Source: an uncultured Acidaminococcus sp.
GTDB taxonomy: Bacteria; Bacillota; Negativicutes; Acidaminococcales; Acidaminococcaceae
Assembly (NCBI GenBank): GCA_902796945.1
Contig: CADBQR010000040.1
Coordinates: 1 to 36,456 of the forward strand
Reading direction: 5' to 3'
DNA: 36,456 nucleotides
The position numbers were made by a program, and so were the translations under genes. Positions 4,307 to 10,989 of the stretch are shown one piece after another. The notes under the pieces are model-generated. The model saw only the letters and a program-made list of their open reading frames with translations, was not told the DNA's origin and ran no database searches. The stretch's first letter is position 1. Every line of letters starts with the position of its first letter.

Positions 4307-5851
4307 ATGACAGGTACAAATGAAAGAAATCAGTCATGGGTGGACCGATTTCTGAACGCGATTGAGCGTGTGTGCAACAAATTACCGCCTCCCGCCATCT
4401 TATTCTGTATTTTATTCATGATTGTCGCGGTAATTGGCTTTTTCTTCACGAATTCCGGATTCGGTCTGATGAACCCGGCCACGAAGAAGATGGTCTACTC
4501 CCAGAACCTCTTCACAAAGGCCGGCGTACAGTGGTTCCTGACCAGCATGGTCAAGAACTTCACCGGATTTGCCCCCTTGGGCCTCGTTATCACCATGACC
4601 ATGGCCATCGGGTTCTGCGAAGAATCGGGCATGCTGGTGGCCATGCTGCGCCGCAGCATGAAGAATGTGCCTCCTAATATTGTTCCCTTCCTGATCGCCT
4701 TTGTCGGTACGGTTGGCAACATTGCCTCCGATACGGCCATGGTTGTTATTCCGCCCCTGGCGGCACTGGTCTATATTGGCGTCAAGAAACATCCTGTCGT
4801 TGGCATGATTGTCGGTTATGCCGGCGCCCAGGCCGGGTTCACGGCAAACCTCATGATTGCCGGTACGGACTCCCTGCTTCAGGGCCTTACGAACCAGGCG
4901 GTGGATGCGTTCCTCGGAAAACCGGGTGCCTTTGTCGTCGATGTTACCTGCAACTGGTATTTCATGATTGCGTCTACCTTCCTGTGCTCCCTGGTCATCG
5001 GCCTCGTTTCCGTAAAAATTGTGGAACCCCGGTTCCCTGTCTATGAAAGCAAGGAAACGGAAGGGACCATCGAAGAAGTCACGCCTCTCGAAATCAAGGG
5101 ACTCCATCGGGCTGGACTGGCTGTCGTGCTTTATGTCATTGTCCTGGCAGTCGGCTTCTTTACGGGAATCCTTTCCAAGGATGGTCATACCCTCGTTGGC
5201 TCTCTCCTGCTGAAGGGCCTGATTCCAATCCTGTTCTTCATGTTCAGTATTGCCGGTCTTACCTATGGGTACACGACGGGCGCTTTCAAGAATATCCGTG
5301 ATGTCAACAAGGCCATGGTCAAGCAGATGAGCGGAATGGGCGCATATGTCGTGTTCTGCTTCTTCTGCGGGCAGTTCCAGTCCCTGTTCAACTGGACCCA
5401 TCTGGGCACGTTGATGGCGATTTCCGGTGCGGATTTCCTGCGGGGAATCGGATTTACCGGTCTGCCGATGTGCATTGCCTTTATCCTCATTACGGCGTTC
5501 ATCAACATCTTTGTATCGTCCGGGTCCGCCAAGTGGGCCATTCTGGCACCTATTTTCGTCCCCATGTTCATGCTGCTTGGTTATCACCCCGGTTTTACCC
5601 AGCTGATTTATCGTCTTGGCGACTCCCCGGGGAACTGCTTTACCCCGATGAGCCCGTATATCTGGATGATTCTCAGTGTGGCTCAGGAAAAGTATATGCC
5701 TGACATTGCTATTGGTACGCTGATCTCCAATATGATCCCCATTGCGGTGGTCCTGCAGATTGCCTGGATTATCTTCCTGATCATCTGGGAAACCCTGGGC
5801 CTGCCCATTGGTCCTGGTGTTGGCATGCAGCTGCCACCCGGTGTGCTGTAA
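4307..5851 (+). CDS. abgT: AbgT-family transporter (p-aminobenzoyl-glutamate type)
   Basis: This 514-residue polytopic membrane protein belongs to the AbgT family, whose E. coli member imports p-aminobenzoyl-glutamate and some of whose members export sulfonamides. It has about 12 hydrophobic segments. The N-terminus WVDRFLNAIERVCNKLPPP with ILFCILFM, the segment GNIASDTAMVVIPPLAALVY, the segment FVSSGSAKWAILAPIFVPM and LGDSPGNCFTPMSPY are family hallmarks. AAAGGAGGAAATCATT gives an ideal ribosome-binding site. The gene converges on an M20 amidohydrolase gene. In E. coli abgT lies beside M20 genes (abgA, abgB), but here the M20 enzyme is of the N-carbamoyl amino-acid class, so the imported substrate may be an amidated or ureido amino acid rather than folate debris. 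The family call is secure; the substrate is inference. Confidence 0.9.
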   Translation: MTGTNERNQSWVDRFLNAIERVCNKLPPPAILFCILFMIVAVIGFFFTNSGFGLMNPATKKMVYSQNLFTKAGVQWFLTSMVKNFTGFAPLGLVITMTMAIGFCEESGMLVAMLRRSMKNVPPNIVPFLIAFVGTVGNIASDTAMVVIPPLAALVYIGVKKHPVVGMIVGYAGAQAGFTANLMIAGTDSLLQGLTNQAVDAFLGKPGAFVVDVTCNWYFMIASTFLCSLVIGLVSVKIVEPRFPVYESKETEGTIEEVTPLEIKGLHRAGLAVVLYVIVLAVGFFTGILSKDGHTLVGSLLLKGLIPILFFMFSIAGLTYGYTTGAFKNIRDVNKAMVKQMSGMGAYVVFCFFCGQFQSLFNWTHLGTLMAISGADFLRGIGFTGLPMCIAFILITAFINIFVSSGSAKWAILAPIFVPMFMLLGYHPGFTQLIYRLGDSPGNCFTPMSPYIWMILSVAQEKYMPDIAIGTLISNMIPIAVVLQIAWIIFLIIWETLGLPIGPGVGMQLPPGVL

Positions 5852-5894: not shown

Positions 5895-5935
5895 AAAGAA
5901 GGGGTTCCCGCGTTTTCTGCGGAAACCCCTTTCTT
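5895..5935. terminator. Bidirectional terminator between abgT and the M20 gene
   Basis: GGGGTTCCCGC (5901-5911) pairs with GCGGAAACCCC (5919-5929) with one mismatch. The stem is extended by AAAGAA on the left and TTTCTT on the right, giving a T-run on either strand. It serves both convergent genes. Confidence 0.8.
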
Positions 5936-5955: not shown

Positions 5956-7185
5956 CTATGCCCCTTCTCCGAGGCTCCTCATCGCGCTTTCCAGAACGGA
6001 AAGCGCTTTTTTGATGGCGTCATCATCCGTGGACTCCTTCGGACTGTGGCTGATGCCGCCAATGCTGGGGACAAAGAGCATTGCCGTTGGCAGGTGCCGC
6101 CCCATGATCATGGCGTCATGCCCGGCCCAGCTGGGCATCTTTTCATAGGGAACCTGCTCTTTTTCGGCCGCTTTTTCGAAAATCTCCATCAGGTGGTCAT
6201 TCATGGGTACCGGGTCGATGCGGTCCAGTTTTTCAATCGAAGCACTGACGCCATAGGTTTTTTCAACGCGCCCCATTTCCTGGCGGAAGGCTGCCATGGC
6301 GGCTTCCATGGTGGCCAGGGTTTCACTGCGCAGTTCCAACGTGAAAACAACCTTGCCGGGAATGACGTTGGCTGCTCCCGGTGTTACGGTCAGCTCTCCG
6401 ACTGTGGCGACGTATTTGCGATTATGGGCAAGGGCCCGCTTATACAAGGCCACGATGCTGTCGGAAGCAGCCGCCAGGGCGTCATGGCGCAGTTTCATTT
6501 CCGTTGTTCCCGCGTGATTGGCCTGTCCTGTTACGGTCACAATGAAGCGGTCGATGCCAACAATGGCAGAAACAATTCCCAGAGGAAGGCCATCCGCTTC
6601 CAGCGTGCCGCCCTGTTCGATGTGGAATTCCAGGAACGCCCCCTTTGCGTCCAGGCGTGGCTGGAAGGGATTACCGCTCAGACCGGCTTCCCGGAGCCAT
6701 TGGGCGAGGGATTTGCCGCCTTTTTGGATGCTTTCGGGATCCCGGTCCTTCAGTTCGCCGGAAATAGCCTGGCTTCCTAAGCAGCACAGGCCGAAGCGGG
6801 TTCCTTCTTCCTCGGCAAACCCGATGGCATGGACCGTCCGCCTGGGCGCAAATCCGGTCCGTTTCCAATGGATCAGGATGGCCAGGGCCGACGTGATGCC
6901 AAGGGCGCCGTCAAAGGCTCCGCCGGAAGGCACGGTGTCAACGTGGGAACCGATATAAAGGGGAGGCAGGCTTTTATCCGTTCCCTCAAGCGTCACCCAC
7001 AGGTTTCCCATAGCGTCAATTTCGGAAGCCAGCCCTTCCTTCTGTGTCATTTCCATCAAGGTATGCTGGGCCTTCATGAATTCCTCCGACCAGGAAAGGC
7101 GCTCCATTCCCCTGGTCCCCTGGTTTCCATAAGAGGCGAGCGTCGTAAAGATTGATTTCCATAAACTGAACAGCGTTGTATCCAT
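5956..7185 (-). CDS. M20-family Zn amidohydrolase (N-carbamoyl-L-amino acid / ureido hydrolase type)
   Basis: This 409-residue cytosolic metalloenzyme belongs to the M20 subgroup of N-carbamoyl-L-amino acid hydrolase, beta-ureidopropionase and allantoate amidohydrolase. The two-metal site is complete: H81 in GSHVDTV, D92 in GGAFDG, E126/E127 in AEEEGTRF, H188 in FHIEQG and the late His in GGISHSP. GQANHAGTTEM is the lid-domain dimer and substrate motif of this subgroup. Such enzymes split a ureido group to amine, CO2 and ammonia. The gene starts 8 bases after the IclR gene and shares its transcript; AAGGATAA precedes the ATG. N-carbamoyl-L-cysteine amidohydrolase, the last step after 2-amino-thiazoline-4-carboxylate hydrolase, also hydrolyses an N-carbamoyl amino acid, and a homologue of that hydrolase lies at 10.5 kb. 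The exact substrate is unknown. Confidence 0.87.
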   Translation of the reverse strand: MDTTLFSLWKSIFTTLASYGNQGTRGMERLSWSEEFMKAQHTLMEMTQKEGLASEIDAMGNLWVTLEGTDKSLPPLYIGSHVDTVPSGGAFDGALGITSALAILIHWKRTGFAPRRTVHAIGFAEEEGTRFGLCCLGSQAISGELKDRDPESIQKGGKSLAQWLREAGLSGNPFQPRLDAKGAFLEFHIEQGGTLEADGLPLGIVSAIVGIDRFIVTVTGQANHAGTTEMKLRHDALAAASDSIVALYKRALAHNRKYVATVGELTVTPGAANVIPGKVVFTLELRSETLATMEAAMAAFRQEMGRVEKTYGVSASIEKLDRIDPVPMNDHLMEIFEKAAEKEQVPYEKMPSWAGHDAMIMGRHLPTAMLFVPSIGGISHSPKESTDDDAIKKALSVLESAMRSLGEGA

Positions 7186-7193
7186 GATTATCC

Positions 7194-7967
7194 TTATCCT
7201 TTCTGCTGGGACGCTTGCCAGTACAGCACGGCTTTCTTCAGGTCCTTTGTCAATGCGGCCATGGCCTTTGTCAGATCCTTTTCAAAGGCTGTGGCGCTGA
7301 TGGTCAGGGCCAGACGCCCATCCGAATCATAAATGGGGACGGCCACGCTGCCCACGTCGTTGGCGTATTCTTCCTCTTCCGTGGCGTAGCCGTTGCGTTC
7401 GACCCGCCTGAGTTCCCTGATAAGCTCTTCCTTGGATTTCAGGGAGTTTTCCGTAAAGATCTTGAATTGGATGTCTGTCAGGGCAGCTTCCCCTTTTCGC
7501 CGGTATTCATCGAGGAGCAGCAGTTTGCCGGAACTGGTGGCATGCTTGGGCAGGCTGGTGAATTCGGACAGGACAATATAGTATCCCCGGTTGGTGGGGT
7601 AGGCACAGTAAATACTGAATACCTGGTTCATGTTGACGAGCTGCAGGCTGGAGGCAAAATGATACCGCTCCGCGATGCCATCGACAATGGGCTTGAAGAG
7701 GGTCACATAGCCGTCAATATTGTTGCGGATCATTTCGGACTTACCGAGAAAGTACATGCCCAGGGAGTAGGTCATGGTTTCCGGGTCGCGGATGAGCAGG
7801 TTGTTTGCCATCAGCGTGTTGACAATTCCCCGTGTCGTGTTGATGTTCAGTCCTGTTTTCTCACTGATTTCAGCCAGTGTCAGGGCGGGGCGGACGCTTT
7901 CAAAGCAGTCCAGGATATCAATCGCCCTCTGGACGGATTGAATGGGTTTGAACTTGGGAATTTTCAT
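7194..7967 (-). CDS. IclR-family transcriptional regulator
   Basis: This 257-residue regulator has an N-terminal winged helix (SVQRAIDILDCFE, then TLAEISEKTGLNINTTRGIVNTL, residues 10-55) and the C-terminal IclR effector domain (residues about 80-250). The effector domain has SLPKHATSSGKLLL and GYATEEEEYANDVGSVAVPIYDSDG, which is very close to the family pattern. I chose ATG 7967 because AAAGGACAATTT precedes it; the open frame runs 66 bases further without a better site. It lies first in an operon with the M20 hydrolase and is divergent from the Nramp-like permease operon. The near-perfect palindrome at 8048-8078 in the shared gap is the obvious operator. IclR proteins usually sense a small acid or a pathway metabolite, so this one probably controls both arms of the cluster. 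Confidence 0.92.
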   Translation of the reverse strand: MKIPKFKPIQSVQRAIDILDCFESVRPALTLAEISEKTGLNINTTRGIVNTLMANNLLIRDPETMTYSLGMYFLGKSEMIRNNIDGYVTLFKPIVDGIAERYHFASSLQLVNMNQVFSIYCAYPTNRGYYIVLSEFTSLPKHATSSGKLLLLDEYRRKGEAALTDIQFKIFTENSLKSKEELIRELRRVERNGYATEEEEYANDVGSVAVPIYDSDGRLALTISATAFEKDLTKAMAALTKDLKKAVLYWQASQQKG

Positions 7968-8026
7968 AAATTGTCCTTTCTGTAATGACAGATGTTCATA
8001 ATCTATCGTAAAATAAAATATTTTTC

Positions 8027-8055
8027 TTGACAAATATTCATGGTATTGTTATAAC
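8027..8055 (+). promoter_or_regulatory. Promoter of the Nramp-like / ureohydrolase operon
   Basis: TTGACA (8027-8032), 17 bases, TATAAC (8050-8055). The -10 box lies inside the left arm of the palindrome described in the next entry, so the operator would block it. Confidence 0.7.
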
Positions 8056-8078
8056 TATCGTATCAACGATATTATAAC
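8048..8078. promoter_or_regulatory. Palindromic operator, probably for the IclR regulator
   Basis: GTTATAACTATCGT (8048-8061), the spacer ATCA, then ACGATATTATAAC (8066-8078). The inner TATCGT/ACGATA arms are perfect and the outer GTTATAA/TTATAAC arms are perfect apart from one extra base on the left. A further single TATCGT occurs at 8004-8009. Position over the -10 box and beside the iclR gene suggests repression. Confidence 0.65.
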
Positions 8079-8154
8079 ATAAAAAACGACAATGTAACAA
8101 CTTAAAACCGAATCCTACCAGAAAATGCCAAAGAACCAAAGGGGGAGAGTTACA

Positions 8155-9393
8155 ATGTCAGAAGTAGAAAAGAAGGCGGAGAGACAGTTTACGTGGGGTG
8201 AGAAGCTTCGTTCCCTGGGACCGGGCTTCCTGATTGTCGGTTCTTTCATTGGACCGGGCACGGTAACCAGTTCGACCAAGGCCGGTGCTGAATACGGCTT
8301 CATGCTGTTCTGGTGCGTCATTTTCTCGGTCATCGCTGTTATTGTCATGCAGGGCATGTCGGCAAGGCTGGGCATCATTACGCAGATGGGGCTGGCAGAA
8401 AACCTGGTCAAGGATTTCGAGGACCGTCCGATGCTGCGAAACCTGCTGTGCGGGCTGGTCGCTGTGGCTATTACCATCGGCGGCTTTGCTTATATGAGTG
8501 GCGACCTGACAGGGACGGCAATCGGCATCAGTGCCCTGACGGGTATTTCGACCCGCGTCATTGCTCCTATTTGGGGCTTCTGCATTCTGTTGATCCTGAA
8601 CTTCGCCGGTGATGCCGTCAAGTACCTGGAAAAGCTCCTGGGCATCTGCGTCATCATCATGGCCGTTGTTTTCCTGGTAACGATGTTTGCTGTCCGCCCG
8701 AACCTGGGCGAACTCCTGCAAGGCTGCATTCCCCATGTACCGAATGGCGGTCTCATGACCTGCCTTTCCCTGATTGGGACGACGGTCGTGCCGTATAATT
8801 TCTTCCTCCATGCCGCTTCTGCAAAACGCACCTGGCATTCTCCGGAAGAACTGCCGCTCTGCCGGTTCGGTACCAATATTCCCATGATCATCGGCGGTAT
8901 CGTTACGGGGTCCATCATGGTCACTTCTGCTACGGTTATGCGCGGCATGCCGGTTCGCAATGCCATGGATATGGCCGTTCAGCTGGAACCGACGCTGGGA
9001 CAGTATGCCCAGCCCTTTATGGCTGTCGGTCTGGTAGCAGCCGGTATTTCCAGCGCCGTATGTTCCCCGATGGGCGTGTCCTATGTTCTGGCCGGCCTCT
9101 TCAACTGGAAGACGGACCGCAGCGATAAACGCTACACCATTACGAACTTCCTCGTCCTGATTACGGGCATTATCATTGCCGGCTATGGCTTCAACCCCAT
9201 TGCCCTCATTATGGCAGCACAGGGCGTCAATGGTATCGTGCTTCCTGTCGTCGTCGGTGTGACCATTTACCTGACGAACCATAAGCGTGTCATGGGACCC
9301 TATGTCAACAGCACACTGGAACGGATCCTGGGATTTGCCATTTTCATTATTTCCCTGATCCTTGGCATCAGCAGCGTTATCAGCCTGTTCTGA
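8155..9393 (+). CDS. Nramp-fold (SLC11-like) permease lacking the canonical metal-binding motif
   Basis: This 412-residue membrane protein of about 11 helices clearly has the Nramp/SLC11 layout. LGPGFLIVGSFIGPGT is helix 1, QGMSARLGIITQMGLAENL follows, and GTTVVPYNFFLHAASAKRTW is helix 6. In metal-transporting Nramps helix 1 carries DPGN and helix 6 carries MPHN, and the Asp, Asn and Met bind the metal. Here they read GPGT (residues 33-36) and VPYN, so all three ligands are gone. It therefore probably carries something other than Mn or Fe, perhaps an organic cation or zwitterion. GGGGGAG precedes ATG 8155; a longer in-frame start at 8125 has no site. It is the first gene of an operon with a ureohydrolase and an ATC-hydrolase-like gene. 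The fold is secure; the substrate is open. Confidence 0.85.
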   Translation: MSEVEKKAERQFTWGEKLRSLGPGFLIVGSFIGPGTVTSSTKAGAEYGFMLFWCVIFSVIAVIVMQGMSARLGIITQMGLAENLVKDFEDRPMLRNLLCGLVAVAITIGGFAYMSGDLTGTAIGISALTGISTRVIAPIWGFCILLILNFAGDAVKYLEKLLGICVIIMAVVFLVTMFAVRPNLGELLQGCIPHVPNGGLMTCLSLIGTTVVPYNFFLHAASAKRTWHSPEELPLCRFGTNIPMIIGGIVTGSIMVTSATVMRGMPVRNAMDMAVQLEPTLGQYAQPFMAVGLVAAGISSAVCSPMGVSYVLAGLFNWKTDRSDKRYTITNFLVLITGIIIAGYGFNPIALIMAAQGVNGIVLPVVVGVTIYLTNHKRVMGPYVNSTLERILGFAIFIISLILGISSVISLF

Positions 9394-9401
9394 TGGAAAA
9401 A

Positions 9402-9432
9402 GAAAGCGATGATTCCCTGAATCGTCGCTTTC
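9402..9432 (+). other. Stem-loop between the permease and ureohydrolase genes
   Basis: GAAAGCGATGATTC and GAATCGTCGCTTTC pair over 14 positions with one G-T wobble around CCT. No T-run follows, so it is more likely an intercistronic processing or stability element than a terminator. A separate promoter for the next gene cannot be excluded. Confidence 0.5.
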
Positions 9433-9490
9433 CCTATGGATATCATCTGTCATCAATGAACTTTGTTACATTATAAAGGAGATGTGCGAC

Positions 9491-10477
9491 ATGAAAGAAA
9501 GCAAACCTTGTATCTATGATCCGAATTTCCTGCCCACCAATATCTACAGCGGGGTTCCTTCTTTTCTGAATCTTTCCGTGGTTGAAAAGAAGGAAGAACT
9601 GAAGGACCTTGATGTGGCAATCCTTGGTGTGCCCTGGGAAGGCGGCTGCACCATCGGCGGCTATTCCTCCTGCACGGACGGTCCTAAAGCCATTCGCTCC
9701 GCTTCCATTCGGTATACGGGGTATCTGCCTGACTTTGACCTGGACTGCTTTGATGTCCTGAAAGCCGGCGACTATGGCGACTGCGCTGTCCAAAACGGTA
9801 ACTATGATTTTACTTTTGAACAGATCTGTAAGTGCTATGGCGACATTGTCGACGCCGGAGCGGTTCCCATTGTCTTTGGTGGGGACCATGGCATTGCATA
9901 TCCGCTGATCAGCGAAATGGCCAAACGCCATCCGAAACGTGTCGGTGTACTCCACTTTGATGCCCATCTGGATAACTATTCCCATTTCGGTGACGATGAA
10001 CTGTCCCGCTGCTCTCCTTTCTATCGCCTGTACAACGATCCGAACATGGATCCGACCAAGATTGTTCACATTGGCATCCGCGGGCCCAGAAACCATAAGG
10101 AAGAACGGCAGAATGCCAAGAAATATGGCGCTACCGTCATTCCCTGCATGGAGGTCAAGAAGAATGGCTGGGAAGCAGCCATCAAAAAAGCCATTGCGGT
10201 CGCTTCCAAGGATACGGACGTCATGTACGTTACCATCTGCGCGGACAGCCTGGATGCTGCCTTTATGCCCCAGGGACCTCAGGATATGTGCGGCCTGACC
10301 AGCTTTGAGCTGATGATGATGGTCCATGAAGCCGGTCTGGCAGGGGCTTCTTCCCTGGATTTCGTTGAAATCTATCCGGATACGCTGACCCTGCAGCCAG
10401 CGGCCCATGTCGGATGCTGGGCAGCCCTGTACTTCCTGAATGGCGTTGCAGAACACCGCCTGAAAGCCGGTAAGTAA
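9491..10477 (+). CDS. Arginase/agmatinase-family ureohydrolase with one altered metal ligand
   Basis: This 328-residue protein has the arginase fold, whose members hydrolyse a guanidino or formimino group to urea or formamide using two Mn ions. Metal-site motifs are FGGDHG (H133), HFDAHLD (D157, H159, D161) and SLDFVEIYP near the C-terminus. The third motif is normally SFDIDxLDPAFAPGTGTP. Here it reads TICADSLDAAFMPQGPQ, so the first bridging Asp is Cys250 while D252 remains, and the substrate-loop GTGTP is missing. It may therefore use another metal, have a changed reaction, or be inactive. ATG 9491 is chosen because AAAGGAG lies 9 bases upstream; ATG 9482 is too close to it. The neighbours suggest a guanidino or amidino substrate rather than simple agmatine breakdown. 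Confidence 0.85.
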   Translation: MKESKPCIYDPNFLPTNIYSGVPSFLNLSVVEKKEELKDLDVAILGVPWEGGCTIGGYSSCTDGPKAIRSASIRYTGYLPDFDLDCFDVLKAGDYGDCAVQNGNYDFTFEQICKCYGDIVDAGAVPIVFGGDHGIAYPLISEMAKRHPKRVGVLHFDAHLDNYSHFGDDELSRCSPFYRLYNDPNMDPTKIVHIGIRGPRNHKEERQNAKKYGATVIPCMEVKKNGWEAAIKKAIAVASKDTDVMYVTICADSLDAAFMPQGPQDMCGLTSFELMMMVHEAGLAGASSLDFVEIYPDTLTLQPAAHVGCWAALYFLNGVAEHRLKAGK

Positions 10478-10512
10478 ACCTGGATGGCCGGCGCATAAAA
10501 ACAAAGGGGGGA

Positions 10513-10989
10513 TTGAAAATAAAGCCGCTGAAATTGGAAGAACCTGTTTCCATGTTTGTGCTGTTTGCCCGTTTTTTCTCCATTCTGGCTAAAAACCTGG
10601 AGAAGGAGTTTGGCGAAAAAGGGCTGGCCGTGCTGAAACAGAGCGTCATTGACTGGGGGATTGCCCGTGGCAAGGATATGGCCAACCGGGCCGCCAAAAA
10701 CGGGAATAAGAACGACCTGGAAGCCTACCTGCCCAGTTATGATATGGAACGGAGCGAACTCTTTGGTTACGATACCCAGTATGGCAAGGATGCAATCACT
10801 CAGGATTTTACCCGCTGTGTCTTTGCTGAAACCTGGATGAAAGCCGGCGAGGATAAATATGGACGCATCTACTGTGAAAATATCGACCCGGCCATTGTCA
10901 AAGGGTACAACGATCAGATGGAATGCATCCATGATCACATCATGTATAAGGATGGTCATTGCACCTTCTGTTTCCGTATGAAAAAATAA
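10513..10989 (+). CDS. L-2-amino-thiazoline-4-carboxylate (ATC) hydrolase-like protein
   Basis: This small protein of 158 residues resembles the ATC hydrolase family, known from Pseudomonas, where it opens the thiazoline ring of L-ATC to N-carbamoyl-L-cysteine. The pattern GIARGKDMANRAAKNG, DFTRCVFAETWMKAG, IYCENIDPAIVKGYN and the end KDGHCTFCFRM is typical: a conserved Cys in the middle, a D-x(4)-GYN step and a final GHCTF strand. Most family members are uncharacterised, so substrate assignment is weak. The start is TTG at 10513 right after AAAGGGGGGA; the first ATG (10552) has no ribosome-binding site and would remove conserved-looking residues. It is the last gene of the permease-ureohydrolase operon and is followed by a strong terminator. 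A cyclic amidine substrate would fit its neighbours. Confidence 0.68.
   Translation: MKIKPLKLEEPVSMFVLFARFFSILAKNLEKEFGEKGLAVLKQSVIDWGIARGKDMANRAAKNGNKNDLEAYLPSYDMERSELFGYDTQYGKDAITQDFTRCVFAETWMKAGEDKYGRIYCENIDPAIVKGYNDQMECIHDHIMYKDGHCTFCFRMKK

Follow-up and report, generated by a model that had tools for sequence, protein, structure and literature searches.

The gene at 8155-9393 of the window, by which we mean the whole 36,456-nucleotide stretch of a contig from an uncultured gut Acidaminococcus sp., encodes a member of the Nramp superfamily (PF01566) that has lost most of its canonical metal ligands. This protein is probably a secondary importer with the LeuT fold that belongs to the Nramp-related "orphan outgroup"; instead of a metal it would carry a small organic nitrogen compound, which the enzymes encoded by its neighbours would process. 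To our knowledge, all proven substrates of the Nramp superfamily are metal ions, and the one pointer to an organic substrate is the genetic evidence from PxpT. This distant Nramp-family member of Corynebacterium glutamicum is required for growth on 5-oxoproline (PMC13274462), and the majority of Nramp-related groups have been described as entirely uncharacterized (PMC12873925).

Operon layout

The transporter and its neighbours are arranged as follows.

5899-5931, minus strand: terminator-like hairpin 3' of the M20 gene (pattern scan)
5956-7185, minus strand: M20 hydantoinase/carbamoylase-family amidohydrolase, on the strand of the IclR gene (TIGR01879, over cut-off)
7194-7967, minus strand: IclR-family regulator, divergent from the transporter (profile match and neighbourhood)
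7968-8154, no strand: intergenic region between divergent genes, promoter-like sites on either strand (pattern matches only)
8155-9393, plus strand: Nramp-fold (PF01566) transporter without canonical metal ligands (Pfam, residue mapping and fold)
9482-10477, plus strand: ureohydrolase-like protein of arginase fold (PF00491), carrying Cys, Arg and Asp where Asp, His and Glu are conserved at catalytic positions
10513-10989, plus strand: PF14196 L-2-amino-thiazoline-4-carboxylate (ATC) hydrolase-like protein (profile match)

The longest open reading frame at the transporter locus extends from 8125 to 9393 (422 amino acids). Since a strong RBS-like AGGGGGAGAG lies immediately 5' of the ATG at 8155, the start chosen in an earlier sequence-only reading is probably the true one, and 8155-9393 the true gene. 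The intergenic gaps are short (88 bp between the transporter and ureohydrolase-like genes, 35 bp between the latter and the ATC-hydrolase-like gene), and the pattern scan listed no plus-strand terminator-like hairpin at 9393-9482 or 10477-10513.

An Nramp fold without its metal ligands

The protein matches the Pfam Nramp profile with E=3.5e-82 over residues 47-396, covering the whole LeuT-fold core, and the best matches of its predicted fold are DraNramp (TM 0.81), EleNRMT and BfraNramp, so that profile and fold both place it in PF01566, with the fold intact as had been read from the sequence. The predicted structures are of moderate confidence; the mean pLDDT of the transporter model is only 65.6, and because it falls to about 50-70 at TM1 and TM6, the geometry of the binding site is unreadable from it.

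Residues were mapped onto DraNramp with 12 aligned clade sequences, transporter residues being given in P0001 numbering. The mapping bears out that TM1 reads GPGT in place of DPGN and TM6 VPYN in place of MPHN: in 12 out of 12 sequences DraNramp D56 is replaced by G43, N59 by T46, M230 by V222, H232 by Y224 and A227 by T219. Instead of the canonical SLC11/MntH signature (TM1 DxxN, TM6 A/CxxM and the His of MPH), all twelve thus carry GPGT, TxxV and Tyr. The claim that every canonical ligand had been replaced nevertheless went too far: Asp56, Asn59, Met230 and His232 are lost, but the TM10 Gln is kept (DraNramp Q378, here Q366), TM3 Glu134 has become Asp127, and both prolines are retained. Asp127 and Gln366 could still bind a cation. 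The canonical proton pathway (E124, D131, E134, R352, R353) is likewise not preserved, D131 being replaced by Met124 and E124 by Thr or Ala, while the charge of the Arg pair is partly conserved (R352 to Lys335, R353 to Arg336). The nearest relatives, 74-93% identical and found in seven other genomes, have identical motifs, and the loss of ligands is therefore not a sequencing accident.

A probable sub-branch of the orphan outgroup

The GPGT/VPYN motif is not new, since it marks a published "orphan outgroup" of PF01566, whose helix 6 carries V-Y and helix 3 Y-N (Cellier, 2022, 2023; PMC9606685, PMC10606218), with Thr at the Ala position of TM6 and, in TM3, Tyr and Asn with a conserved Gly. The mostly uncharacterized "G-motif" groups of Nramp-related proteins were described more recently (Ray 2026 preprint, PMC12873925). 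Like both, the transporter has Gly for the TM1 Asp, T...V-P-Y in TM6 and the TM3 Tyr (T219, V222, Y224 and Y123), and lacks the canonical metal and proton residues; it differs in that the TM3 Asn is Asp127 and a following Gly is Thr, and in being linked to an arginase-fold gene, not to pxp or hyu genes. On the tree, the hydrolase-linked transporters form a fully supported sub-branch (100/100), grouped with sequences that carry the full orphan-outgroup pattern. All 12 members of this sub-branch have TM3 Asp127, where the 12 pxp/hyu relatives compared all have Asn.

Homologs about 35-42% identical to the transporter share IGPGTVT and VPYN with it and sit in pxpA/DUF1445/pxpB/pxpC operons; haloarchaeal homologs, which read VGYN, have hyuA/hyuB as neighbours and in some cases a racemase-family gene as well. 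The expectation that the GPGT/VPYN clade would always adjoin ureohydrolases is not supported for the motif as a whole; the tie to the ureohydrolase-like gene is confined to the sub-branch with TM3 Asp127. The transporter was first filed with YcsG and PxpT, which are Nramp-family proteins of nitrogen-compound operons in Bacillus subtilis and C. glutamicum, on account of the pxp operons in which its outgroups lie. Membership of that group was rejected: YcsG/PxpT-type proteins on pxp-operon plasmids have other motifs (GPGFLTQT and GGTVGGY) and are only 21-23% identical to the transporter, and the YcsG model 9a52 is 18% identical.

Acidaminococcus genomes G001-G008 (L024-L042, L073, L074) hold several more motif-deviant Nramps, of GPGFLTQT and GPGAITTA types and often in tandem; one lies in a DUF1445/pxpB/pxpC operon and another beside a DHDPS-like gene.

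Linkage to an arginase-fold gene

All 12 genomes found to carry the Nramp sub-branch, down to 47% identity, have it in one cluster with the arginase-fold gene. These are five Acidaminococcus, two Oscillospiraceae, one Clostridiales MAG and, at 47-55% identity, four more genomes; MAGs are included in the survey. An IclR gene is usual in the clusters, and the ATC-hydrolase-like, M20 carbamoylase or racemase-like genes are variable. In the four genomes at 47-55% identity the order is ureohydrolase-like, EutA/racemase-like and Nramp, with IclR upstream. Four additional genomes that belong to the same order as G458 proved, on a repeat search, not to be new. The ureohydrolase-like gene was found in 15 genomes in total (12 with Nramp and three with a Liv-type importer), and the ATC-hydrolase-like gene adjoins it in nine of them. 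Among 63 searched genomes of the order to which the window belongs, eight have the arginase-fold gene, five with Nramp and three with an ABC importer. We found nothing in the literature on Nramp proteins with agmatinase or hydantoinase clusters, and the coupling of this sub-branch to an arginase-fold gene appears to be its unreported part.

At L125:7462-13858, an operon of Nramp, racemase-like, ureohydrolase-like and IclR genes is directly divergent from pxpA-pxpB-pxpC, which suggests a tie to 5-oxoproline metabolism.

Divergent partner enzymes

Two amidine/guanidine-type hydrolases had been read in the operon of the transporter, and two putative ones were recovered downstream of it, as PF00491 and PF14196 proteins. 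The first matches the ureohydrolase/arginase family (E=1.8e-57) and keeps H136, D160, H162, D164 and D255. In arginases, a conserved Asp bridges the metals as a ligand and a His acts as proton shuttle. All 15 members have Cys253 for the bridging Asp, Arg176 for the His and Asp268 for the Glu, and the full set of six metal ligands with catalytic His and Glu is absent. The best sequence and fold matches of this protein, GdmH guanidine hydrolase, 3-guanidinopropionase and metformin hydrolase, have the arginase fold in common with it but not these three substitutions. Its reaction can therefore not be called guanidine hydrolysis, and the earlier designation of guanidine-type hydrolases stands at family level, with the guanidine chemistry unproven. 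By its residues this partner is a distinct subfamily; with an invariant Cys where the bridging metal ligand is expected and Arg in place of the catalytic His, it may represent a new enzyme chemistry.

The ATC-hydrolase-like protein scores 94.7 bits against PF14196 (cut-off 28.1). The M20 enzyme belongs to the L-carbamoylase/hydantoinase-family amidases (TIGR01879, 353.6 bits, cut-off 204) and just exceeds the cut-off of the allantoate amidohydrolase subfamily NF006771 (403.1 bits, cut-off 399), while the ErtE profile does not recognize it. In Pseudomonas, DL-ATC is converted to L-cysteine by an ATC racemase, an L-ATC hydrolase and an N-carbamoyl-cysteine amidohydrolase. The comparable families here are the racemase-like, PF14196 and M20 carbamoylase proteins; unlike in that route, no operon found here combines them, and they are joined by an arginase-fold enzyme and an Nramp importer.

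Exchange with a Liv-type ABC importer

In three genomes (G021, G037 and G040), the module of ATC-hydrolase-like and ureohydrolase-like genes carries LivK-H-M-G-F in place of the Nramp gene, and no close Nramp homolog was found in any of these genomes. The order in G021 is M20 and IclR (reverse), then LivK, LivH, LivM, LivG, LivF, ATC-hydrolase-like and ureohydrolase-like (forward); in G037 an IclR gene accompanies the same Liv-to-ureohydrolase run, and the contig of G040 starts within LivM. By profile score, the Liv components resemble branched-chain amino acid/urea ABC proteins but stay below the equivalog cut-offs. On the tree of the ureohydrolase-like proteins the ABC-bearing genomes fall in two places, and the starred branches force at least two transporter changes. 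Two unrelated transporters in one slot are the strongest evidence that the Nramp protein would carry the organic substrate of the module. Together with the lost ligands and the neighbours, the swap favours import of an organic solute over that of a metal, as does the 12/12 hydrolase linkage, in line with the organic-substrate branch that had been proposed.

The transporter might still be a metal importer that, in the manner proposed for MumT and urea carboxylase, provides the metal-dependent ureohydrolase-like enzyme with Mn2+ or Ni2+; its site would then be a rearranged one, made up of TM3 Asp127, TM10 Gln366 and backbone carbonyls. We keep this rival, which we regard as unlikely, because two Nramp-related proteins of nitrogen-compound operons, YcsG (PMC10448178) and MumT of Acinetobacter baumannii (PMC5050338), are reported Mn importers that raise cell Mn. 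MumT, encoded in a urea carboxylase operon, resembles the transporter by description in being Nramp-related and in a ureido-compound operon, and differs by description in its reported Mn import and its operon enzymes. Furthermore, Mn in BfraNramp contacts the equivalent of the TM3 Glu (PMC12873925), and no canonical DPGN Nramp/MntH was seen in the nine Acidaminococcus genomes examined. Against a metal speak the loss of Asp, Asn, Met and His in every sub-branch member, the arginase-fold enzyme that itself lacks a bridging metal ligand, the local regulator (IclR, not MntR), a PF01297 (ZnuA/MntC-type) binding protein elsewhere in each genome, and the filling of the Nramp slot by an importer of Liv type, for which amino acids and urea are the annotated substrates.

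Still less probable is an exporter or exchanger of a pathway product, such as urea, an amine or an amino acid: direction is unreadable from sequence and LeuT-fold APC antiporters exist, among them AdiC, a weak fold match to the transporter, but the Liv system that takes its place is an importer, given its substrate-binding protein. An Mg2+ transporter of NRMT type is very improbable, since EleNRMT, a good fold and sequence match and likewise a motif-deviant Nramp relative, keeps the TM1 Asp, and the NRMT motif DxxG-TxxA/T is replaced here by GxxT-TxxV.

Candidate substrate and significance

Under the preferred reading, organic solute import, the 8155-9393 protein would take up a small organic nitrogen compound; the fold, the ligand loss, the conserved linkage, the phylogeny and the transporter exchange are shown, and we infer the direction, the organic nature and class of the substrate and the coupling ion. 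In Acidaminococcus, the compound would be processed by the divergent arginase-fold protein, the ATC-hydrolase-like protein and the M20 N-carbamoyl-amino-acid amidohydrolase, and in distant relatives by the arginase-fold and EutA/racemase-like proteins; the IclR regulator probably senses it. The enzyme families and the 5-oxoproline/hydantoin context of the outgroups suggest, as a tentative guess, a ureido/amidino acid that is either open or a five-membered ring, the ring being perhaps a 2-aminothiazoline-4-carboxylate or a hydantoin-type acid by analogy. The set of accessory enzymes differs from lineage to lineage, so the members may not all share one substrate. The neighbour enzymes do narrow the list, and the ABC-importer operons offer an independent handle through their binding protein.

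The broader picture, in which gut anaerobes have a catabolic operon, so far unreported, that joins an Nramp branch importing organic amidino/ureido acids to a new arginase-fold subfamily with a metal site rebuilt around Cys, seems to us evenly balanced between right and wrong. If true, the automatic annotation "Nramp family divalent metal transporter" would be wrong for the sub-branch, and gut Firmicutes would have a new degradation route.

Other elements near the operon

No guanidine riboswitch or other cis RNA was found at the operon, and no substrate clue from such an element was seen there. Between the IclR and transporter genes, an imperfect palindrome, GTTATAACTATCGT-atca-ACGATATTATAAC, lies at 8048-8078; it is absent from relatives and was rejected as a conserved IclR operator. 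An AbgT-family transporter gene is located nearby (4307-5851), but its position varies among relatives and it was not retained as a fixed part of the operon; in G002 (L076), three tandem AbgT genes adjoin the operon.
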